Assembly: GCA_963402885.1 (NCBI GenBank)
Contig: OY727096.1
Coordinates: forward strand, 19,139,820 to 19,203,819
DNA: 64,000 nucleotides
Direction of reading: 5' to 3'
Source: Antedon bifida
Lineage: Eukaryota > Echinodermata > Crinoidea > Comatulida > Antedonidae
Shown here: positions 562 to 63,010 of the stretch, one piece after another
Layout: each line of letters begins with the position of its first letter
How positions within the stretch are numbered: position 1 is the stretch's first letter
The notes under the pieces: model-generated
What the model was told of the DNA's origin: nothing
The model's input: only the letters and a program-made list of their open reading frames with translations
Databases searched by the model: none
Program-made: the position numbers and the translations under genes

Positions 562-3500
562 CTTGATTGTTTGTTCTTTTTAGGATCTTCTACTGAAAAG
601 ATATGTACTGTTCCATGATCACTGGACACACACAGTAACGATGAGTCTTGGTTAAAACTTATGCTGTATAACATACAAATAAAGATGATATATGATTGAT
701 ACAAACAAATAGTGGTTTTCCTGACTGGCCAATCCACTATCATTGCCATATACAAGCTTAATAGCTAGGCACTAAAGAACACATCTCTGTTAAAAGGCCA
801 TTTAATTACACCGTTATCAGTCTTAAGCTTTGTCTACACTATCAAACTAGTTTGACAAAAAAAATGTGATGTACCCAAATATGGTAGTAATACACTTAAG
901 TACAGTAGTGATATGACATCATCATGTCCATATATGGGCACATTACATTTTTTTTCACATAAAGTTTGAGCTTAAAGTATGAAATGTGATAATTTAATAA
1001 AACGGCTAAACTTTGGAGTCTGACCGCATCATTATCTAATAACTTTTAATGGTCGAACGACCGTCGTATTCAATTAAAGAAATTAAAAGAATTTCCATCG
1101 ATCATTTGGAGATGTTAAAAAGTGTCTGGATTCATGTTTCGTACATCGGAAAAGCTAATAAAACCCCTCATGAAAGAAATTCAAATACTGTACAACAATA
1201 GTAACCACAATAAGTGTACATTTGTAACCATGAATAATTGTTAATTGTCATGTATTTTATTCATGTATTCAAACTAAACTAATTCCTCCGTGTTCTATTT
1301 GTACTCTTTAATGTTTTGATACCAAATAATACACATTATTTGTATTTCAATTTACAGATATTTGTAATGATTTATAAAGCATTGTTTGAAACTTCCGCCT
1401 CAATAATCAGAAAGTTTTCTTTTCAATTGTTCCTATCTACTTGAGTGAATATGTTTCCTGTTAGAATGATGTCGATTGTTGTATACACAGTAAACCTAGA
1501 TCAGGTAAGTTCATAAACCAGGTTTTGTATGCTAGTTTAGGTTAGTAAAATGACATTACCTAGTTAACTAGCTTAACCAGCTAGACTATTAGAAAAATGA
1601 TATAGTATATATCATTTGACTTGACTAGATCATGGTTTATATCCTAATAATAGCCTGTTCGTGGTTAATAGAGCATATCAAAACCAAAGCTTCCTAAACA
1701 CATCCTTTAATAAGACAAATTACTTTAAAATTTAAACATACCAGTAAATTGAAGCACTTCCAGATCCCCTTCTGAATTCTTGTAACAATGCTCCGTTACT
1801 GGTGTCAAACATACGGATAAGTGTTCCCTAAAAATTAGAGACGTATATTATAAAACTGCAGGGGAGTGTATTTATAAAAGGATACAATATATTATAGTTA
1901 TACACTGTTTGATTATAAATAAACAGTTTAGACAAATTTTTCAAAAAAGAAACGTTTTTTTTTTAAACTAAAACTACTAGGACCTGCAGTAGAATTACTA
2001 TACAGTAGCACATACAGTACAGTAGTAACAAATACAGTATCATTTTGAGGCATTAATATCATAGAACTATATTACTGCATTATACAGATGAATTACTACA
2101 GCAACTTCAGTACCATTCTGATGCATACTGCAGAACGAATACTGCAGAACACAGATGAATTACTACAGCAACTTCAGTACCATTCTGATGCATACTGCAG
2201 AATGAATACTGCAGAACACAGATGAATTACTACAGCAACTTCAGTACCATTCTGATGCATACTGCAGAATGAATACTGCAGAACACAGATGAATTACTAC
2301 AGCAACTTTAGTACCATTCTGATGCATACTGCAGAATGAATACTGCAGAACACAGATGAATTACTACAGCAACTTTAGTATCATTCTGAGGCATGATGCA
2401 GAACTAATACTGCAGCATGAAGATGAATTACTACAGCAACTTAAGTATCATTCTGATGCATGCAGCAGTACTGCTGCAGCACACTACAGATGAATATCTG
2501 CAGCAACTTCAGCATCATTCTGATGCATACTGCAGAAATATTACTGCAGCACACAGATGAATTACTACAGCAACTTCAGTATCATTCTGATGCATATCAT
2601 GGTTTCTTACCTTTTCTGATGCAGTGGCTAGCCTACTCCCCTGCAGGTTGAGTGATATGCACGAGAGTGGCCCCTCATGGGCGGCCATATCCGTTGGGGG
2701 TTTATCGGTGTTGGCTAAATCTACAACTTGCACGTGACCAGCCTTTCGACCAGGAAACGCTAATAGCGAGTTATTGCTACTTGGACAAAGAACGCAAAGA
2801 CCTGTAATAAAAGAAAACAAACAAGTTTAATATCAATGACCTTACTGTTTGGTAGAATTAGATTAAAAGTAAAAGCTCAGTTACAAAATGTAAAAAAAAA
2901 TTAAATATACATAATTCTATACCTTTTGGATTGTGACATGTCTCAAAGACATGAAGTTGCTGAGGATTCTGGGTAAATGTGTATACTTTGATTATTGTAT
3001 CCAAGACAACTACAATTCTGAAAAAAAAATGTGTACAAAAATAAAATAAAAATGAGGTAACAAACAAACAAAAAATATTCAAATAATAAAAATAAAAGGG
3101 AGGTAAAAAAAGTTAAACGTTAATAATAATAAGGTAAATCTATTAATACTTGATGAACAATGACATAGGCCTGGTGCATATAAAATAATTAAATACACAC
3201 CTATCTCTTCTTAACCTGACTGCTCGTACTTCTGTTGAAAAGTCTAATTCGATGACAGGTTTTTTCTTTAAATCATCCCAGACCATAACTAAACAGATAA
3301 ACATATTTTTAATTATAAATAAATAATAACAAAAACTGATCATATTTAATGTTGTACAATAATTATTTTAATTTTATTTTAAAGGTAACCTCAATTGTAT
3401 TAATTCTAAAAACTATGAGTTTTATTTTACTTCCTTTTCCGCCTTTTCTTTCCTCTATAATTTATAAGAAATAAAGTTGATTTTATTATGTTTATTATTA

Positions 3501-5754: not shown

Positions 5755-7772
5755 ATGGCAGCTCTTCGCACAGGTCTGGTTCGATGTTTCATCGCAAACC
5801 CCCTTTCAAAAGTAAAAGTAGCTCTCCCAACGTCTCATTTTAACTTGCATAGAAACTATGCTTCAGGTAAGCGCATTTTTAAGTGCTTTGATGGCCTGCA
5901 TCATGCATTTAAGCTTGTTATAATTTGTCTTCTAGCAGCATATAATATAATAGGCCTAGCATGCACTGCAAGGCTGTCTACACTCTACATCACCAGCACC
6001 ACTCAATATCATAACCACTCCTCTTCTTTGTAATATCCAGTGCCAAGCAGCCTGGGAGTATTTTACAACTCCCTCTGGTAGGACTCAAGAGTCTTCCTGC
6101 AGAAGCCCTACTTACAATACATACAGCCGTCACCAAGCGATTGAACAAAAATGAAGTATCAATTATATAATATTACCGGTACTAAGATTAATAAGAAGAC
6201 AAATATTTATTTGATTTAGATGCATTTGAATACCTGAAAGTCGAAAAGACCGGTAAAAATGATTGTGTTGGGCTTATCACATTGAACCGGCCGAAAGCTT
6301 TGAACGCTCTATGCGATGGTTTGATGAGAGAACTGGCCGGAGTACTAGACAACTTTGAAAAGGACAAAGGAGTAGGTTGTCTTATCCTTACGGGAAGTGA
6401 AAAGGCTTTTGCAGGTAAATATGTTTAAATTAATATATATATTTATATTTGAAATGGAACATTATACATCATTAGATTTAACCTCTTCTTATTTTTCCAT
6501 AGCTGGTGCTGACATCAAAGAGATGCAGAACAATGAATTTTCTCAAGTGTATGGCAGCAACTTTTTAAGTCATTGGGACAGAGTCAGTAGAAACATCAAA
6601 CCCATCATTGCAGTTGTCAACGGTTTCGCTGTAAGTTTCCAAAAAGGAAACTATCCTTATTTATGTTTTAAAATAAAGTTTAGAATACATTTATTTTATA
6701 ATACAAAATTAGTAATAAACAGAAATGCTAATTGATTTTATTTGTTGGGGTTTTTTTTAGCTTGGAGGAGGATGTGAAGTTGCAATGATGTGTGACATCA
6801 TCTATGCAGGTGACAATGCTCAATTTGGTCAACCAGAAATTCTCATAGGAACAATCCCAGGTAAGCTACATTCCCAGGTCAGCCACTTTCCCAGATCAGC
6901 CACATACACAGGTCAGCCACATACACAGGTCAGCCACATTCCCAGATCAACCAAATTTCTAGGTAAGCCACATTCCCAGGTCAGCCACTTTCCCAGGTAA
7001 GCCACTCTAATAAATTGGAATTATTTTTACCAGGGGCTGGAGGTACCCAGAGACTGCCAAAGGCTATTGGCAAGTCTAAAGCTATGGAGATGGCATTGAC
7101 AGGAGATCGTATTTTAGCAGATGAGGCCCAACGATCAGGTATGAAGTTTGCATTTGTTTGATTTATCAAAAAGCTACATAAATACAGTACTATATCTTGC
7201 TCTGATACTACCAAACTAAGTTTGGTAGTAAATAAATAATAATTGTTTTGCTCTTTAGGTCTGGTAAGTAAAGTATTCCCAAAAGAACAAGTCCTGGCTG
7301 AAGCAGTCAAAACGGCAGAGAAGATTTCAAGCAACTCAAAGTTGATCGTGGCCATGGCAAAGGAATCTGTCAATACATCCTTTGAGACTATGCTGAGTGA
7401 AGGACTTCACTATGAGAAGAGGACGTTTCACACAACTTTTGCAACTGTATGTAAAAATTTTAATGACAACAATTTAATTTGATTGAAAAACCTATGATTT
7501 TCTAAACTGAACATGTTAAATATTTAGCTTGGGGGATAGATAGTCATACAGACTTTGAATTCATTTTTGTAAGGAAAAATATCACAGATAAGATATGAAA
7601 AGCAAAGAAACAACATTCTCTGAACATATAACGTCTATGTCGCCCTCTATAATAAGTATTTTTGGTTGCCAGTAAAATTCACGTAATTTCTTGATTTGTT
7701 TTATAGAATGATCGTAAAGAAGGCATGAGTGCCTTTGTGGAGAAAAGAAAACCGGATTTTACTGATTCATAA
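5755..7772 (+). CDS. ECHS1: Enoyl-CoA hydratase, short chain, mitochondrial
   Basis: Seven exons: 5755-5866, 6220-6414, 6503-6630, 6761-6860, 7034-7138, 7259-7446 and 7707-7772. They join in phase to 297 residues (human ECHS1 has 290). The enzyme hydrates 2-trans-enoyl-CoA in beta-oxidation and valine breakdown in the matrix. Residues 1-37 are basic and Ser/Ala-rich without acidic residues, as in a mitochondrial presequence. Oxyanion-hole positions are A105 (in AGADIKEMQ) and G148. The catalytic glutamates are E151 ([16 protein letters not shown]) and E171 ([18 protein letters not shown]); both are offset by seven from the rat enzyme's E144 and E164. The C-terminus [15 protein letters not shown] is typical. 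Intron 4 (6861-7033) is only 173 bp and is mostly a minisatellite. Confidence 0.98.
6860..7006. repeat. 17-bp minisatellite built on the ECHS1 exon 4 splice donor
   Basis: Successive 17-bp units begin at 6860, 6877, 6894, 6911, 6928, 6945, 6962, 6979 and 6996. The typical unit is GGTCAGCCACATTCCCA. Unit 1 (GGTAAGCTACATTCCCA) includes the genuine 5' splice site, whose GT is 6861-6862. Units 7 and 9 again read GGTAAG, an exact donor. The remaining units have GGTCAG, GATCAG or GATCAA. Confidence 0.95.
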
Positions 7773-52580: not shown

Positions 52581-54545
52581 TCACCGGAAAACGTAAATTG
52601 GCATGCTGTGATCTGGTACGTGTTCTAAATTCAACGACTGAAACCTGACAAAACAAAATCAAATGACGGAATCAAATAAAAAGAAAATGATAAATTAATG
52701 TTATAAAAACAAGTGGAGCTGTAGCTTGGTGGTTAACATGCTTGTCCTCCAATAACAAGGTCCAGGGTTCAATCCTGATCTAGTGCCAGGGTTCAATCCT
52801 GATCTAGTGCCAGGGTTCAATCCTGATCTAGTGCCAGGGTTCAATCCTGACCTAGTGCCAGGGTTGTAACTCACGATTCCCTAAGCCTCAAATAAGATTT
52901 AGTTTATAAGCATGATAAATTATAAAATAGGTTATCCATCCTGTAATTGGTAAGCTACTTGCTGTTGGATGCATATGAAATAAACAAATATATGGGAGGC
53001 ATCTTCATTGTTTATCAGAAGTTGTCAAATTAATAGTTTTTTGTATACAAAGCATACATTTTAAAATGTTTAAGTAAATAGAAGTCGAAAGAAAAGAAAT
53101 AAATGGTTAGAAATTGTTTAACCTCAAAACATACCATTCTGAGCTTTTGTGATAATAGTATCCATCGATGGCGCCCTTGGACTTCTGGTAACAGATATAA
53201 TAAAAACCAGCAAAAGATGCTCCACTGATGTCACGAATCCTGTGATCTGGTACTAAGAAATGCTCCTTAAGAAAAACAAATTAGGGATTTATTTTTTCTA
53301 TTCTTATTGAAATTATGTTGAATATTAGGATGGATCAAATGCTCAAACGGCTAAAGCCTTTAAAAATACTGAAGAACTCTTCCTTGGAGACACCCTATTA
53401 TGGGGACACTTTCCTGTGAAACAGATGAGAGGAAATATATATTTTAACACTACAGCCAATCTGACATTCTTATAATCACTAAATATTTCTAATGAATAGG
53501 AGGGGTTAGTTGTATTAGTATTTCTGTGCTAAAGGTCTCTTCACGATTTGTTGTAGTACATACCTTCCATCTCATGTAGATAAAATCATCATTTTCAAGT
53601 TGATCATATTTAAATGAATCCGAATTAAAGATGGTTGCAAACTTGAAAAATGATGGAAACTGACCCTAATAAAAAAAAAATGAAACTATTAATAATTGAA
53701 TAATTATTACTGCTAATTTATATTGTCAATTTTCATAATTACAATACATATATCAATTATTAATTTCAATTGCATGTACAGGTATTATAATAGATATTTT
53801 TAATTCATTTCCGATGCACACCCAATGTTTTTTATCAACGTCTTCATCAGCATCCCACTTTCGTGTCAGGAATGGATGTTTGTCACTTATGATCTCTCCA
53901 TCAAAGAAGGTAGTAAGTGTGGGATATTCCTCCGTCAGTCCTTTGATTCGAAGGTACCCACAGAGGTAACAGTTTTGTTCATCTACATGCTGAAAAAAAA
54001 AATTAGAAAACTGATTCCTGATTGGCCAGTTAAAAAACTTACACATTTTCAAAGTAATTACATATATATATAAAGTTTATTATTAACTCGTTCGACCAGC
54101 AGGTGGTTTGCATAGCGGCGTAGTGATATGCATGTAGTTTTTTAGGGGGATGATACAATGAGGGTTGTGGGTTTTTATTCTCGGAGAAAAATAGATTTTC
54201 CCCCATAGCTACTTTGGCCTATATCTTAAAGACTATTTCAAACAACTATAACAAAAAGAAAAAAATATGTCTAGGCCTAGAAATTCTCACAAGTAATGGG
54301 CATCACACTAGTGCAAGAGGGCTGGACCCACCAGGAACCCACACACAAAACATTGAAACACTCTCTCTTGGCCTAGCAAGAAGACGAACCTGAAGTTCAA
54401 CTTCAACTGTATAGCAACTGCCTTTGCTTTTTTGTTGGCCTTTAAATTTGGAACCGCTGTATAAAACAGACTTAGCAACACCAGGTTGTTGACAGTTAAT
54501 TGGCGGAGGTGGGTCCAACTTTAGTCCAGGCATATCTTTTGACAT
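52581..54545 (-). CDS. GID4: GID4, substrate receptor of the CTLH/GID E3 ubiquitin ligase
   Basis: Five exons: 54390-54545, 53822-53989, 53564-53665, 53135-53265 and 52581-52644; 206 residues. GID4 is the N-degron (Pro/N-end) receptor that brings substrates to the CTLH complex. Seen are [20 protein letters not shown] at the N-terminus, the barrel strands [39 protein letters not shown], and the C-terminal [19 protein letters not shown], close to the human protein throughout. The human isoform has a longer, low-complexity N-terminus (about 300 residues in all). Here the frame is open further upstream to 54602, but the first ATG in it is 54545. The exon 1 donor is the unusual GTTCGT. The gene is head-to-head with ATPAF2. 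Confidence 0.96.
52713..52985 (+). mobile_element. tRNA-derived SINE, copy 1, with amplified B box
   Basis: The head GGAGCTGTAGCTTGGTGGTT (A-box-like) leads to a B-box-like GGGTTCAATCC. A 24-bp piece holding that B box (CCAGGGTTCAATCCTGATCT...) is repeated four times from 52762. The body ends with ATCCTGTAATTGGTAAGCTA and TGGATGCATATGAAA. It lies in GID4 intron 4, antisense to the gene. Confidence 0.75.
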
Positions 54546-54797
54546 GAAATTGTCTTCCTTCCTTCTGCTCTTGGTTGTTAAAATGTTCTCATTATTTACC
54601 ACATAACGTCTGTATTTACTACAACTAAATGGCGTATGTGCATTGGCTAAACAAATACAAGGCTTGGAATTCTAACCAATTGAAACTTGTTTCAGTAAAG
54701 TTTATGTAGGCGTCGACACAGCCGTTCCTCAATAAAGTGCGGCGGTCGTAATTTTTTGTAAACAAACTGATTTAGCAGGCTTAAATCCTTTAAAATT
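54546..54797. promoter_or_regulatory. Bidirectional promoter between GID4 and ATPAF2
   Basis: The start codons are head-to-head and 252 bp apart. A CpG-containing patch (GGCGTCGACACAGCCGTTCC and GTGCGGCGGTCG at about 54710-54748) lies on the ATPAF2 side. No TATA box is evident. Confidence 0.7.
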
Positions 54798-57700
54798 ATG
54801 GCATTTAAAACATTGGCAAATCAATGTTTGTCTTCAATGCTTTTAAAATCTAGAATTCCTGCTGCAAACATGCTAAAAAGGGGTTTTAGAGGTAATATAG
54901 TTTAAATATATTGAGAGAAACAATTGTTAGGCTTAGCCCAGACGTGTAACCACATGTGTTTTGTGAGTGGAAACTGCCTGGAAACGGAGGAATAATATTA
55001 CGCAGTAACGCAAACATAGCTTAGGATAATTACAACTATACAACATAGAATTTAAGATGGATAAAACAAATTCTTTCTAACAACTTCTTCAAAAAACTTT
55101 TAGAAAGGAAGAAATTTTACAAATCAGTGAGCATTACTGAGTCAGAAGGTGTGTTTGAGATTAATCTTGACCAACGCAAGTTGAAGACACCATCCGGAAA
55201 GCTCTTGCAGGTTCCGAGTGAAGCCTTGGCTATTGCTGTATGCACAGAGTGGGACAAACAGACAGACATTATAAAACAACACACTATGCAGATGGTAAAA
55301 TATGTATTTTGTATGTTTTATTGTGTATTTATTTAATATTTATCATTGTTTTTATAATTGTCAGTTTTTCTATTTGCTATTTTTCTTTCCAGACAACTTT
55401 ATGCAACACAGCCCTTGATAACCCAACTGGTAGAAATAAAGAACAAGTGATAACATCAATACTCCATTTTCTTGACACAGACACAGTGTGGTATGCAATT
55501 ATTCACTGTTAAATAAATGATGAAGATAATACAATATGGTGATGACAATTGATAATTGTGGAGCTGTAGCTTGGGTGGTCGAAGTGCTTGTCTTCCAATC
55601 TCAAGGTCCGGGGTTCAATCCTGACCTAGTGCCAGGGTTGTAACTCAACTCCACTCCCTAAGCCTCAAATGGGACTTAGTTTATAATATCAATTATAAAA
55701 TAGTTTATCCATCCTGTAATTGGCAAGTTACTCCCTCTTGGATGCATATCAAATATTAAAAATTGATGATGTGAAAATTGGTAGAAGATACTGTATGATA
55801 GCAATTCTGGGGATGATAAACCATGATGACAGATAATGATAACAATTAGAGTGAAGATGATTATTGATAAATTCTGGTGATGGTGATTAAGATGATGAAT
55901 GTTAATAATTCTGAAAAAGATGATGATAAACAGTGATCGGAATATAAGATTATCAATATTAATTTAGTTACAGACAAGAATTACCGGTCGACCTTGTTGA
56001 ACTTCAGACAAGAGAATGGGACCCGCTGTTAGACTGGTTCAACTCTCGATACGAGACTGATATCACATCTACACAATCCATCATACCACCGGCAGTACCA
56101 GACGAAACACGAGCCAAGCTGAGACAGCATTTGATGACACACAACGAGTGGGCATTATTCGGTAGTGTATTTTGGCATAACATATTCATTACCATGATAT
56201 GAAATATAATTACTCAAATACTACACACCTGAAGACGTGTACAGTTTTTAATAACTAGCTATTATTTTAACTAATCTAAAGCTCTGTCTACACTATCAAA
56301 TTAGTTTGGACAAAAAAAAGGGTAATGTGCCCAAATATGATTGTGATAATTATGATGTCATCGTGTCCATATATGGGCTTATCACATTTTTTAAGACGGG
56401 GGTGTATCCTGTATAACTGACTATTTATGTTTTGGCAGGCTATGAAAGCGCAGTACAATCATTGAAATCTATCGTGGTTTCATTTGCTCTTATGGATCGG
56501 CATATTCATGTTGAACGAGCAATGGCGCTGTCCAGGTTAGAAGAAGAATTCCAAGTAAGTCGGCTGAATGGCCAAAAGCAAGCATTCATAAAAAAAATTG
56601 CAAGTAATTATTAATGACAGTTTCCTAAATGCAAGTGCCTCCTCTTAAGAACATGGAGTTTGAATTAAAAGGTATAATTAGCCATGGAAATTAAATAATA
56701 AATTATGTTGACTGATATTTAAAACAATTATAAATGAAACGGACACCACACCCAACTAATATATTATCAAATGTGCTATTTGAAAGAGAAAACATCTTCA
56801 CAGTTTATGGAGGATGTCCTTTTAATCTTAAAAATGACTTATTCAAAGATTCAATATCATCTACATGCTTGTTTGTTAATGTTACCTTATGAAGAAATCA
56901 AGTCACGTATAAAGTATATAAGTGAATATTCTTTCATTCTAAATCGATTAAAGTTGAATTGTATGACTGACAATAGCATGAAAATAATTACCTTTATGTT
57001 TAAAAAATTCCACCAAACAAATGTCAGCCGAACGTGCCGATAAAGTCCCTTTCAGTGTTCGGACACAGGGCAACACATCCAAAGAGTTAATCATGGTTTT
57101 GAATGTCCAATAGCGCTGTTTCCTGTGTGATGAGAACTACAGCTGGAAAGGGGCATGCTTCCTGGTTTTGGTTCCCGAGGGATTTTTACACTTTCTTGCG
57201 GGATTTAAGGCTGGTTTAGAGAAGTGGCTTGACCGCCTGGGTACAATTACATTATCCTCTCTCAGTAATGATGTCCAGACATGCTTAGCCATTGAGGAAA
57301 ACATACAGCTGGCCTAGCTTCGTGGTTATGTACAACATACAGCTGCCCTAGCCTCTTGGTTATGTTTGACAAAGCTTATGGCCATGATATAATGTGCTAT
57401 GGAAATTTGATCCACATGTGCATGAAAACAAACATAATGTGAGGTCAGTCTGAATAATGGACAGTATTAAAAGCGTACAATTGGTTTTGGGTCACAAAGG
57501 GCAATAATGTAAAATTACAAGTAAATACAATAGGAAACTTGATGTTGGTTAGGACACTTGACTGTCATACAGAGACCAGGGTTCAATTCCCGACAACTCC
57601 CAGTCTACTCAGCTGTAAATGAGTACCTGGTTGAAAATACTAGGGATGATAAGGTCGCGTGGAAAAGAAATGGCCACCCCACCACATAATGCCAAGGCTT

Positions 57701-58655: not shown

Positions 58656-61600
58656 TTACAAAGTTCCCTGCAAGTCCAATAATTCTAGCTCATCACTTAG
58701 ATGATCGATAAAATTACTGATTTCTTTCACACGATCTCTGTTACGCTTCACTTCTTCCACGTTATGGATTCCCTCTATTAGACTTGCCATCCAGCCGTTT
58801 GCCCTCTGTATAATGTCGTCCTCCCTGTTGTCAATCTTCAACATGTGCACGTCGTGAGATGCGCTAACAGCGTTTGAAATTGTGTCTTTGTCAACAAATA
58901 ACTAAAGATAAAAGAAGAAAAATGATAATGTACTGTATTCATTATTTTGAAACAACCTAAAGCCAAAACCAAATATGATATCATCATGTCCATACATGGG
59001 CACATCACATTTTGTTGTCACATAAAGTGTGATAGTGTAGACAGAGCTTTAGAAAAGTGTCAACAGGATTCTAACACTTTTTCAAGATAATTTTTTCAGA
59101 AAAAAATAATCTTCAATTATACCATTTTGAGATCCTCAGGGAGATCGTCATCAAGTTCATTTTTCATGTATTTTTCCAACGTAGCGATGGCAGTCTCCAA
59201 CAGACGCTCATGGTGAATGTTCTCTAAATCACGTATCTGTGATATCGTGCGAGATAGTTAAAGAAATATATGTTAGCAGAGTTATTTATAAAGCTCTGTC
59301 TACAATATCAAACTTTATGTGACAACAAATTTTGATGTGCTCATATATGGACATGATGATGTCATATCACTAACATATTTGGGCACATCACACTTTCTTT
59401 TGTCAAACTAGTTTGATAGTGTAGACAAAGCTTTACATTCATATCTGATTAATAGACAGAGCTCAAGACATGCTTAATTATCATGATGCAGATTATATAA
59501 TACATATTTTAAAGGATATAGTCCCTGTACGTTCTCTACAAATGTTGCAACGAAATCTGCCATATTTCTCTCAAATTCTTTGATAGTATCCTACAACAAA
59601 AATAAACAATATCTTGAAATTATTCTGCTTAAATCATTAAACACATTTAAGCACTCGGTACAAGTATCTTTCTCAGGATCATTACCTCAAGTTGGTCAAC
59701 AATTTGCATCTCCAAGCCCATCAGTTTGTCACACAATGCATCTACTTCCTCCTTGTATTCATCCACACGACCTTTCAATACATTGGGGTCACTAATCTGA
59801 CTAAACTCTGCAAACACCTATGTAATGTAAAAATACTGTATATTAGTACAATCTATTATTAAGCTCTGTCTACACTGAAAAAAAGTGTGACGTGTGCCTA
59901 AATATGGTAATGGCATGACATCATCATGTCCATATGGTCACATCACATTTTTTTGTCACATAAAGTTTGATAGTGTAGACAAGGCTTTAGTTATAAACTC
60001 AAAGTAATGTGGGTATGATTGACGATTACAATATTAACGATGGAGATAAAGATTTGATAATGAATTGATAATGCAGTACCTTCTTTCTGTATTGGTTAAA
60101 CTTCTTTATTTCATTGATGGCATCTTTTTTATTTTCATCCTTTGCTTCTTGAATGCAAGCGTAGAACTCTTGGACATCATGTTCTCGTCTGTCAAACTCC
60201 TTTAGACCAAACTGAAACACCTGCTGACAGATCCCCACCATTTTCTCTTTATATGTAAGTCTCATTAAGGAAGATACACATTTACAAATCCCCATGGTAT
60301 CAATGTTAACTTAAGAGCATCAGTGGCTTAACACAGAGACCTGAGGCCTCTGGTCCAGAACCCCTAAGTGGCCCTGCAATACTGGAGGTCTTAGATGTTT
60401 TCATATTTTTTCGACATGATTTAAAGCCTGTTGTTTCCTCTTGGCTCTGCTCAGGGGCCCCTGTAAGCTCCGGGGCCCCTGTGTTAGCCAGTGTGCGCTC
60501 ATAGCCGTTACGCCACTGAAGAGGGTCATATTGGAAACTGAATACTAATAATTCTACTATTACTGCAGTAAATTAATAAATGTTTGCTCCTGCACCCATC
60601 TACAGTATCCACATGGGGTATCAAATTTTTGTAGGCCTTCAGGCGCAGTTACAAATAATGTAGCAGAAGAAAATAGAATCATTTAGAAAAAAAATGTTAT
60701 AACTGATAATTGAAAGGATATGAGAGAAGTAACTCATCAACTCCTGGTAAGGCTGCAAGGTTCACTGCTTCAGGGTCGTCTGTGAACATACTGTCAAATA
60801 GGTAAGGTCCATTCAGATTCTCCACATAAGCAGCCTGCAAATGAAAAGTAATGATTAGAAAAGATTCATGTAACTGGGGTAAATGGTATATAGAGTTGTG
60901 GACCCAAGCCTGCCATGTTAGGCAGTAGCTTGTGAAAGTGGAGACATTGTTGTGGGCCTAGACCTGCCTTGTTAGTGTTAGACAGTAGCATAGACTATTT
61001 ATTATTTTAGTATTACATTAAGCTCTGTCTATACTTTCAAATGATATGGACATGATGATGTCAAATCACCATATTTGGGCACTTCACACTTTTTTCGTCA
61101 AACTAGCTTGATAGTGTAGACAGAGCTTTAGTGTGCTTACCTTCTGCCTGGCATATTCTTCTTGTTGCAGCTTCCTGTCTTTCTCTTTCAGCTCAGCTGC
61201 CATCTCATCTGCAACCAGCTCTTCAATGGCATATCTATACTTTTCTACTGCAGCTTCTCTCTAGTAAAAAAAAAACAAAACAAACTAGCTAGTTGGAGTA
61301 GTTACACAGTTGCATGCTCCAATTCCTTAACCTATGTTGTCACTAGGCTTGTACCTTTGGATTGAAGGGCTGGAAGTACAAATTCTGGGTCTGGATTGCT
61401 CATGAGAAAAGTAGTAGCCACAAACTAAGCTTCAGTTTACACATGGGATTGATTATGCTCATTCTTTAACTAAGAAGTTCCCATCACTGTTGGGTTGTAC
61501 TGTCAGCTTTTACTGTGGACTGTGGGCTATGATGTAATGTGTGGTGAGAGGAAATAAAAATATACAAACTTACTGTGTTGCCATCAATTAGCCTAAAATC

Positions 61601-63010
61601 TAAATACACCAATGATGGAATATGTGCGACAACAAACGGCTTGTAGTTATCATCATCGCAAAATGCATTCCCATTGAGATTTAACGTCTGCAGATTTCGA
61701 AACCTTCTCAGGTAAACAAGCTGCGAATTAAAATAAATATTTTTCAGAATTCACCAAAAAAATTGGGCTTACCTATTGATCTCATGAAAGAGAGTGAGTA
61801 TTATTAAAATTGTTTTACTTTCTTAATTTAATAAATTGAATTAACATAATAAATATATGTAACATATGACCTGACTGTAGAAACAAATACAAGTTTGTTT
61901 TAATATCAAATAACATACTGCATTAGCTAATACAATTGTATCAAATTAAATCTATTATACGTACATTTTCCAGGCTAGAGAGCTTGTTGTTGCCCACTGA
62001 GAACACATGTAGGTTTGTGAGGCTTGCCATGTTCTCCAGAGCTGCTATTCTGTTGTTGTATAGTGTCAGGTCCTCAAGTTTCCCTAGCTTGTCTAAGCCT
62101 TCAATGACTTCAATATTGTTAAATGACAAATCTAGAAGACATTTCAAAAGTTCAAAGTTATATTATTAATAAGAATAGCTTTTCATTGTCAGTCAACAAT
62201 CAAACTTATAAACAAACCATATCCCATAAAGACCTAAATAGTGTTTTAAAAAAACCTTTAAGGCTAACCAAGTAAAATCTAAATATAAGTTTCCTAAATG
62301 CCAACCCAGACAGCATTTTATGACGAAGCCCGTCAAATTGTCTTGACCCGTCGTCGTTCTGAGTTGGCCTTTAAGAAACTTATATTGAGATTTTACTGGG
62401 TCGGCCTTTAGCTACGGTGTATCAGTATTATATCTTACCTAACCACACCAAATTGACCAATGCATCAAGGCCCTCGATTCTTTCAATAATGTTGTTATCT
62501 AATTGTAACTTAACAAGACTTGTAAACTGCCACAAATTATCAATTTTAAGAATATCTATAAAAGAAAAACATTTGAATATTTGTTAACCAATCAGTATTC
62601 TATATATTTAAGCAGTTAGAGTTTTTAGTCGCGTGCAACGCAAATCTACAGCTCACTATGTCAGTTAGTTGGTCGGTAAACACTAACTTGAGCACGTGAC
62701 TGCAGCCATGTATATGGCCTTGTTCTAAATGATGTGAGTTTTTTAAGTTTTTGTAAGTTATTAGAGTTTTTTTGGATGAGATGTTTCTGAAAAAAAAAGA
62801 AATTGAAAACAAATAATGTGAGAGAAAAAAAAAACATTTTTGCAACTGACTTTTGAAGTCTAGTCTTAATTGAAGAACGTCACCAAAATCAATCCCTTCA
62901 GATTTTGCTATTTTTCCAGCTTCTTCTTTCGGTCCTTGTTCTTCCACTGCTTTCTGTAACATATCCTCCTCAATCACTGACGGCTCAACCGTATCATACA
63001 GACGACTCAT
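58656..63010 (-). CDS. DRC3: Dynein regulatory complex subunit 3 (LRRC48)
   Basis: Eleven exons: 62851-63010, 62439-62555, 61965-62131, 61574-61720, 61141-61260, 60722-60834, 60080-60254, 59686-59817, 59520-59590, 59123-59246 and 58656-58901. They join in phase to 523 residues, the length of human DRC3. DRC3 belongs to the nexin-dynein regulatory complex of motile cilia and flagella. The start [18 protein letters not shown] matches the family. Leucine-rich repeats span about residues 45-200 ([48 protein letters not shown]). A long coiled-coil region follows to the C-terminus, with [20 protein letters not shown] and [16 protein letters not shown]. Nine introns are GT-AG; introns 6 and 9 are AT-AC. 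The CDS is convergent with ATPAF2. Confidence 0.97.
58965..59051. mobile_element. MITE family A copy in DRC3 intron 10
   Basis: Right half of the element: core ATGTCCATACATGGGCACAT through GTAGACAGAGCT-TTA. The left half is decayed. Confidence 0.75.
59247..59519 (-). other. U12-type AT-AC intron (DRC3 intron 9)
   Basis: Read on the minus strand, the donor is CT|ATATCCTTTA (first intron base 59519), a match to the U12 consensus. A branch-site match TTCTTTAAC lies at 59265-59257, and the acceptor GCAC ends at 59247, 11 bases past the branch adenosine. Joining 59520 to 59246 reads [13 protein letters not shown], aligning without gaps to human VQSLMAQCRDLEN. No GT-AG choice gives this. The intron is phase 2. 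Confidence 0.9.
59288..59435. mobile_element. MITE family A copy inside the U12-type intron of DRC3
   Basis: Full copy in inverted orientation: AGCTCTGTCTACAATATCAA at the left and TTTGATAGTGTAGACAAAGCT-TTA at the right. It fills over half of the 273-base intron but leaves donor, branch site and acceptor untouched. Confidence 0.9.
59859..59990. mobile_element. MITE family A copy in DRC3 intron 7
   Basis: TTA-AGCTCTGTCTACACT at the left, core with a short deletion (CATATGGTCACATCACA), right end GATAGTGTAGACAAGGCT-TTA. Target-site TTA on both sides. Confidence 0.85.
60255..60721 (-). other. U12-type AT-AC intron (DRC3 intron 6)
   Basis: Read on the minus strand, the donor is TC|ATATCCTTTC (first intron base 60721), the U12 consensus. 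The branch site TTCCTTAAT lies at 60272-60264 and the acceptor CTTAC ends at 60255, 10 bases past the branch adenosine. The joined exons read [20 protein letters not shown], aligning without gaps to human LPGVGELLETYKDKFVIICV. A GT-AG alternative (GTTACT with AATGAG) loses two residues and has a poor donor. The intron is phase 2. Confidence 0.92.
61021..61127. mobile_element. MITE family A copy in DRC3 intron 5
   Basis: A short but terminally intact copy: TTA|AGCTCTGTCTATACT at the left and GTGTAGACAGAGCT|TTA at the right. This gives the clearest 3-bp TTA target-site duplication of the family. Confidence 0.88.
62261..62407. mobile_element. Palindromic MITE, family D, in DRC3 intron 2
   Basis: TTA|AGGCTAACCAAGTAAAATCT on the left pairs with AGATTTTACTGGGTCGGCCT|TTA on the right. 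The arms continue inward (AAGTTTCCTAAATGCCAAC with GTTGGCCTTTAAGAAACTT). It is 147 bp long, with a TTA duplication and a GTCGTCGT-containing centre. Confidence 0.85.

Follow-up and report, generated by a model that had tools for sequence, protein, structure and literature searches.

Which of its introns does the DRC3 (LRRC48) gene of the crinoid Antedon bifida entrust to the minor spliceosome? We examined a 64,000-nucleotide stretch of this genome, hereafter the window (assembly GCA_963402885.1, contig OY727096.1, positions 19,139,820 to 19,203,819 of the forward strand), where a sequence-only reading had proposed a single U12-type AT-AC intron, intron 6 of DRC3. Our analysis of the sequence leads us to conclude with high confidence that the gene has two ordinary AT-AC U12-type introns, introns 6 and 9, and in the following we set out the splice signals, the protein comparison and the small nuclear RNA (snRNA) genes on which this conclusion is built, together with the other ways in which these junctions could be read.

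Gene model and splice signals of introns 6 and 9

The DRC3 coding region was assembled from 11 coding exons, all of them open, which together run from Met to stop and encode 523 residues. Two solved DRC3 chains aligned to this protein, 9fqr_Qv over residues 1–518 of the 523 (E-value 1.2e-170) and 8j07_3, which we take to be the human chain, over residues 5–518 (9.6e-169); by this practically end-to-end match the predicted gene is a DRC3 orthologue. Eight of the ten introns between the coding exons are GT-AG, the exceptions being introns 6 and 9, for which the coordinates and the basis of each assignment are collected in Table 1.

Exon 6 ends in CTTCTCTC at 60722 and intron 6 begins with ATATCCTTT at 60721; at its 3' end the intron reads ACTTAC (final base 60255), after which exon 7 opens with ATATAAAG at 60254. 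Intron 9, with 735 nt between it and intron 6, has the identical nine-base donor. The published consensus for AT-AC U12-type introns consists of donor ATATCCTT, branch site TCCTTAAC and a terminal AC (PMC2831892, in the part of its text available to us). The donors at 60721 and 59519 fit ATATCCTT (or GTATCCTT) at eight of eight positions, and the two branch sites each agree with TCCTTAAC at seven of eight (TCCTTAAT and TCTTTAAC), that of intron 6 having T for the last C and that of intron 9 having T for one C. The branch adenosine of U12-type introns lies about 10–16 nt from the 3' end, and the distances found here, 10 nt in intron 6 and 11 nt in intron 9, fall inside this range. With this donor, a branch site near the consensus, the AC end, the short distance from branch to end, phase 2 and minor snRNAs encoded in the same genome (see below), the two introns resemble the AT-AC subtype of U12-type introns and show no difference in kind from it. 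Minor introns are biased away from phase 0, and AT-AC introns make up about 26% of those in human, according to the available text of PMC10639083; the mixed termini AT-AG and GT-AC are disfavoured (PMC3584512, likewise in its available text).

The letters and coordinates that had been given for intron 6 proved correct, as did its description as having a U12-type donor, a U12-type branch site and a terminal AC 10 nt downstream of the branching A. By noting one U12-type intron the sequence-only reading was sound as to intron 6 but missed the second, intron 9 (59519–59247). A broken gene or an assembly error that merely mimics a U12-type intron is in our view extremely improbable: we found no support for it, and it would have to be reconciled with 11 open exons, a 523-residue frame from Met to stop whose product aligns with solved DRC3 over almost its whole length, and the same set of signals in two introns.

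Table 1. Positions in the window of the DRC3 features discussed here and of exons of other genes.
Feature	Position	Strand	Basis
DRC3 (LRRC48) coding region	58656..63010	-	gene model; matches to 9fqr_Qv and 8j07_3
Coding exon 6, end within codon 275 (TC|A)	60722..60834	-	gene model
Intron 6, predicted AT-AC, U12-type, 467 nt, phase 2	60255..60721	-	signals, protein test, snRNA pairing
Donor ATATCCTTT of intron 6	60713..60721	-	sequence; pairs with the genome's own U11 and U6atac
Intron 6 branch site TTCCTTAAT, adenosine at 60265	60264..60272	-	sequence; U12 pairing
Intron 6 acceptor AC, 10 nt from the branch A	60255..60256	-	sequence; splice-pair test
Coding exon 7	60080..60254	-	gene model
Coding exon 9, end within codon 401 (CT|G)	59520..59590	-	gene model
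Intron 9, second predicted AT-AC U12-type intron, 273 nt, phase 2	59247..59519	-	signals, protein test
Donor ATATCCTTT of intron 9	59511..59519	-	sequence; U11/U6atac pairing
Intron 9 branch site TTCTTTAAC, adenosine at 59258	59257..59265	-	sequence; U12 pairing
Intron 9 acceptor AC, 11 nt from the branch A	59247..59248	-	sequence; splice-pair test
Coding exon 10	59123..59246	-	gene model
Exon with Pfam ATP12 domain	55049-55333	+	Pfam match
Exon with Pfam Vac_ImportDeg domain	53756-54076	-	Pfam match
Exon with ECH_1 (enoyl-CoA hydratase) domain	6376-6732	+	Pfam match
Exon with PROPPIN domain	2518-2826	-	Pfam match

Alternative splice pairs compared with the DRC3 protein

For introns 6 and 9, one intron at a time, we enumerated the candidate splice pairs with GT-AG, GC-AG, AT-AC, AT-AG or GT-AC termini that kept an open frame and left an intron of at least 30 nt; the donor range began 20 nt inside the upstream exon, and the acceptor range stopped 10 nt short of the downstream exon's end. 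Every candidate protein was scored against the 8j07 DRC3 chain. At intron 6 there were 146 in-frame candidates (63 GT-AG or GC-AG, 23 AT-AC, and 60 AT-AG or GT-AC), among which the AT-AC pair 60721–60255 had the best score (1395) and alone gave a protein of 523 residues; the best GT-AG pair scored 1386 (521 residues) and the best mixed pair 1387 (525 residues). The claim that only the AT-AC splice yields an ungapped DRC3 protein at this place is thus borne out. At intron 9, with 114 in-frame candidates (30 GT-AG or GC-AG, 56 AT-AC and 28 mixed), the AT-AC pair 59519–59247 again scored best (1395), against 1376 for the best GT-AG pair (525 residues) and 1356 for the best mixed pair; two of the 114 gave 523 residues, this pair and another AT-AC pair that scored 1374. 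None of the GT-AG or GC-AG pairs tried at either intron gave 523 residues, and the alignments to 9fqr_Qv and 8j07_3 are gapless at both junctions. Judged by the protein, the AT-AC termini of both introns would therefore sit at the true exon ends.

The same comparison bears on the most obvious alternative, that both places hold GT-AG introns removed by the major spliceosome, which we consider very unlikely. For intron 6 such an intron would be ATGA|GTTACT...AATGAG (60733–60261; 521 residues), and for intron 9 either ATAT|GTATTATAT...TCACAG (59503–59237; 525 residues) or GAAC|GTACAGGG...TCACAG (59530–59237; 516 residues). All three pairs keep the frame open, a pyrimidine run, TCTTCCTT, stands directly before AATGAG, and the two AG ends, with 12 and 11 pyrimidines in their last 20 bases, are like the other AG ends of the gene. 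Against solved DRC3, however, the three proteins score 1386, 1376 and 1362, compared with 1395, and the splice from GAAC|GTACAGGG loses VQGLISQ, a stretch that aligns without gaps to both 9fqr_Qv and 8j07_3. The three GT donors also pair weakly with U1 (-2.5, -1.3 and -0.9), although two accepted GT donors of DRC3 are equally weak in this respect (-1.6 and -0.9). Finally, GT-AG splicing would turn the strict U12 signals found at both places into coincidences.

Minor-spliceosome RNAs of the genome and their predicted pairing with the splice sites

The reading of introns 6 and 9 as U12-type would call for the minor-spliceosome RNAs, and in the genome examined (315.6 Mb in 27 contigs) we found snRNA genes scoring above the Rfam cut-offs for U12 (124.2 bits), U6atac (136.6), U4atac (96.9) and, at two loci, U11 (88.6 and 85.6). 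The two U11 loci (L012 and L013; G000:C10 and C13) are identical in their first 13 bases and divergent just downstream. Searches for U12, U6atac, U4atac and U11 gave nothing in 14 control genomes, a result that says little as the identities of these controls are not given, and within the window no Rfam family reached its gathering score.

The U12 sequence includes GAGUAAGGAAAAU, and its segment GUAAGGAA can form a duplex with either branch site that leaves the A bulged, with one G-U pair in each case; the 5' end of the genome's U11 is AAAAAGGGC, and its U6atac contains AAAGGAGAG. The two ATATCCTTT donors surpass the other eight of DRC3 in their pairing both with U11 (-4.5 kcal/mol, the next donor reaching -3.7) and with U6atac (-5.7, the next -3.5). 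With the 5' end of U1 taken as generally known, their U1 pairing comes to +1.6 and +1.3, i.e., none, and they are the only two of the ten donors to pair more strongly with U6atac than with U1. These values also bear on the idea that both belong to the U2-type AT-AC introns, which the major spliceosome removes, as with intron 21 of SCN4A. U2-type AT-AC introns do exist (PMC2831892, in the part of its text available to us), but here position +5 of the donor is occupied by C, neither donor pairs with U1 and both branch sites resemble those of U12-type introns, so that we give this explanation next to no weight.

From the signals, the protein and the snRNA genes we infer that in A. bifida the minor spliceosome would indeed remove the two introns from the RNA at these sites. 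The pathway is established, U11/U12 acting before U4atac/U6atac and U5. The donor ATATCCTTT would be paired by U11 and the branch site by U12; U4atac/U6atac and U5 would then join, U4atac delivering U6atac, which would displace U11 at the donor; and, after attack of the branch adenosine on the donor, the exons would be joined past the AC 10–11 nt downstream.

Chance occurrence of the donor motif and weight of the evidence

In the 64-kb window ATATCCTTT occurs twice on the minus strand and not at all on the plus strand, where 0.81 and 0.64 occurrences, respectively, are expected from the dinucleotide composition, and in a span the length of the gene it is expected 0.055 times. The count is therefore not in excess, and the notable part is the placement: the only two occurrences in the window lie at DRC3 exon ends, and downstream of each come a U12-type branch site and, 10–11 nt farther on, an AC. 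The looser motif [A/G]TATCCTT has eight sites in the window, six of which lie away from the two donors; four of these six lack a branch site with a suitable terminus over a distance of 4000 bases, and the other two have a looser branch site and an end within that distance. A search of the genome for the pattern with a donor-to-branch gap of at most 30 bases returned 9 matches, compared with 3 for the reversed pattern, but this gap is too short for the introns discussed here and the result was not used.

Several points weigh against reading introns 6 and 9 as U12-type. At intron 6 the margin of the protein over the best GT-AG candidate is small, amounting to 9 score units and 2 residues; as GTTACT/AATGAG reaches 1386 with a protein only 2 residues shorter, the protein by itself is a modest argument, and it is the splice signals that carry the case. 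The junctions were in turn chosen at first partly by the motif, for which reason we attach no formal probability to its placement and regard the protein test as the independent part of the evidence. Duplex energies are by themselves weak and fail to single out the sites: when the gene's 4347 9-mers are ranked by their U12 duplex, the intron 6 branch site comes 13th and the intron 9 branch site 139th, and in the ranking by U6atac duplex the ATATCCTTT donors come 200th, so that we use pairing as support only. U12-type introns have no pyrimidine tract before their 3' end, and in this regard the two AC ends (13 and 15 pyrimidines in the last 20 bases) do not differ from the ends of the eight AG-terminated introns of DRC3 (11–17), which gives the U12-type assignment no help. 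The junctions are, moreover, predictions from genomic signals and protein.

Comparison with known minor introns and possible significance

U12-type introns are a well-known kind, and one per gene is typical; two per gene are uncommon, though precedented, about 50 human genes carrying two (PMC3584512) and the SCN and CACN1 channel genes being examples of such genes (PMC2831892, PMC3584512), as far as the available text of these sources goes. Like these channel genes DRC3 would have two U12-type introns, but unlike the set described there both of its introns are AT-AC with an identical nine-base donor, and its product belongs to the axonemal dynein regulatory complex. Minor introns are also described in cilium genes, including IFT88, CEP41, RABL2B, ARL16, TCTN1 and others, in connection with primary cilia (PMC13216214, in its main text), and DRC3 would resemble them in being a cilium gene that depends on the minor spliceosome. 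Neither DRC3 nor LRRC48 occurs in the main text of that paper, and a literature search, made without most subscription papers or U12DB, returned nothing relevant that links either name to U12-type or minor introns, the only paper it brought up (PMC9979489) being about hydrocephalus; DRC3 may well be listed in databases such as U12DB.

We speculate that the DRC3 intron pair is ancient and common to other deuterostomes; one subunit of the dynein regulatory complex of motile cilia would then need two minor splicing events per transcript. This is a tentative suggestion, which we hold to be somewhat less probable than its opposite. If the pair is old, DRC3 would bring a gene of motile cilia into the group of minor-spliceosome-dependent cilium genes, a link described for primary cilia in the main text of PMC13216214, and it would sensitively report loss of the minor spliceosome in motile cilia. 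For annotation, a gene-prediction program restricted to GT-AG introns might set wrong junctions at two places in DRC3, and as these junctions stay in frame the error would be easy to overlook. The sequence-only reading had expected such a program to miscall the exon pair or to split the gene; the first may happen, while a split would not necessarily follow.

Possible inserted DNA and neighbouring genes

Two of the introns carry what may be inserted DNA, which leaves the splice signals of introns 6 and 9 untouched. In intron 9, positions 59289–59437 hold a short repeat with inverted ends, further copies of which are present at other places in the window, DRC3 introns 5, 7 and 10 among them, and which looks like an abundant miniature inverted-repeat transposable element (MITE). 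Intron 6 contains a 198-nt stretch (60518–60321) with the ends CAGTGGCGTAA and TTAAGCCACTG, inverted at 10 of 11 positions, and with flanking 8-mers that match by eye at six of eight positions; it has no second copy within the window and, going by the general features of such elements, may be hAT-like with a target duplication of 8 bases.

The window also includes exons of other genes, identified by their Pfam matches (Table 1), and an open reading frame (54306–54671, minus strand) that has no Pfam match. The ATP12 exon presumably belongs to ATPAF2 and the Vac_ImportDeg exon probably to GID4, genes that adjoin DRC3 in man, and the neighbourhood of ATPAF2, GID4 and DRC3 may thus be an old synteny.
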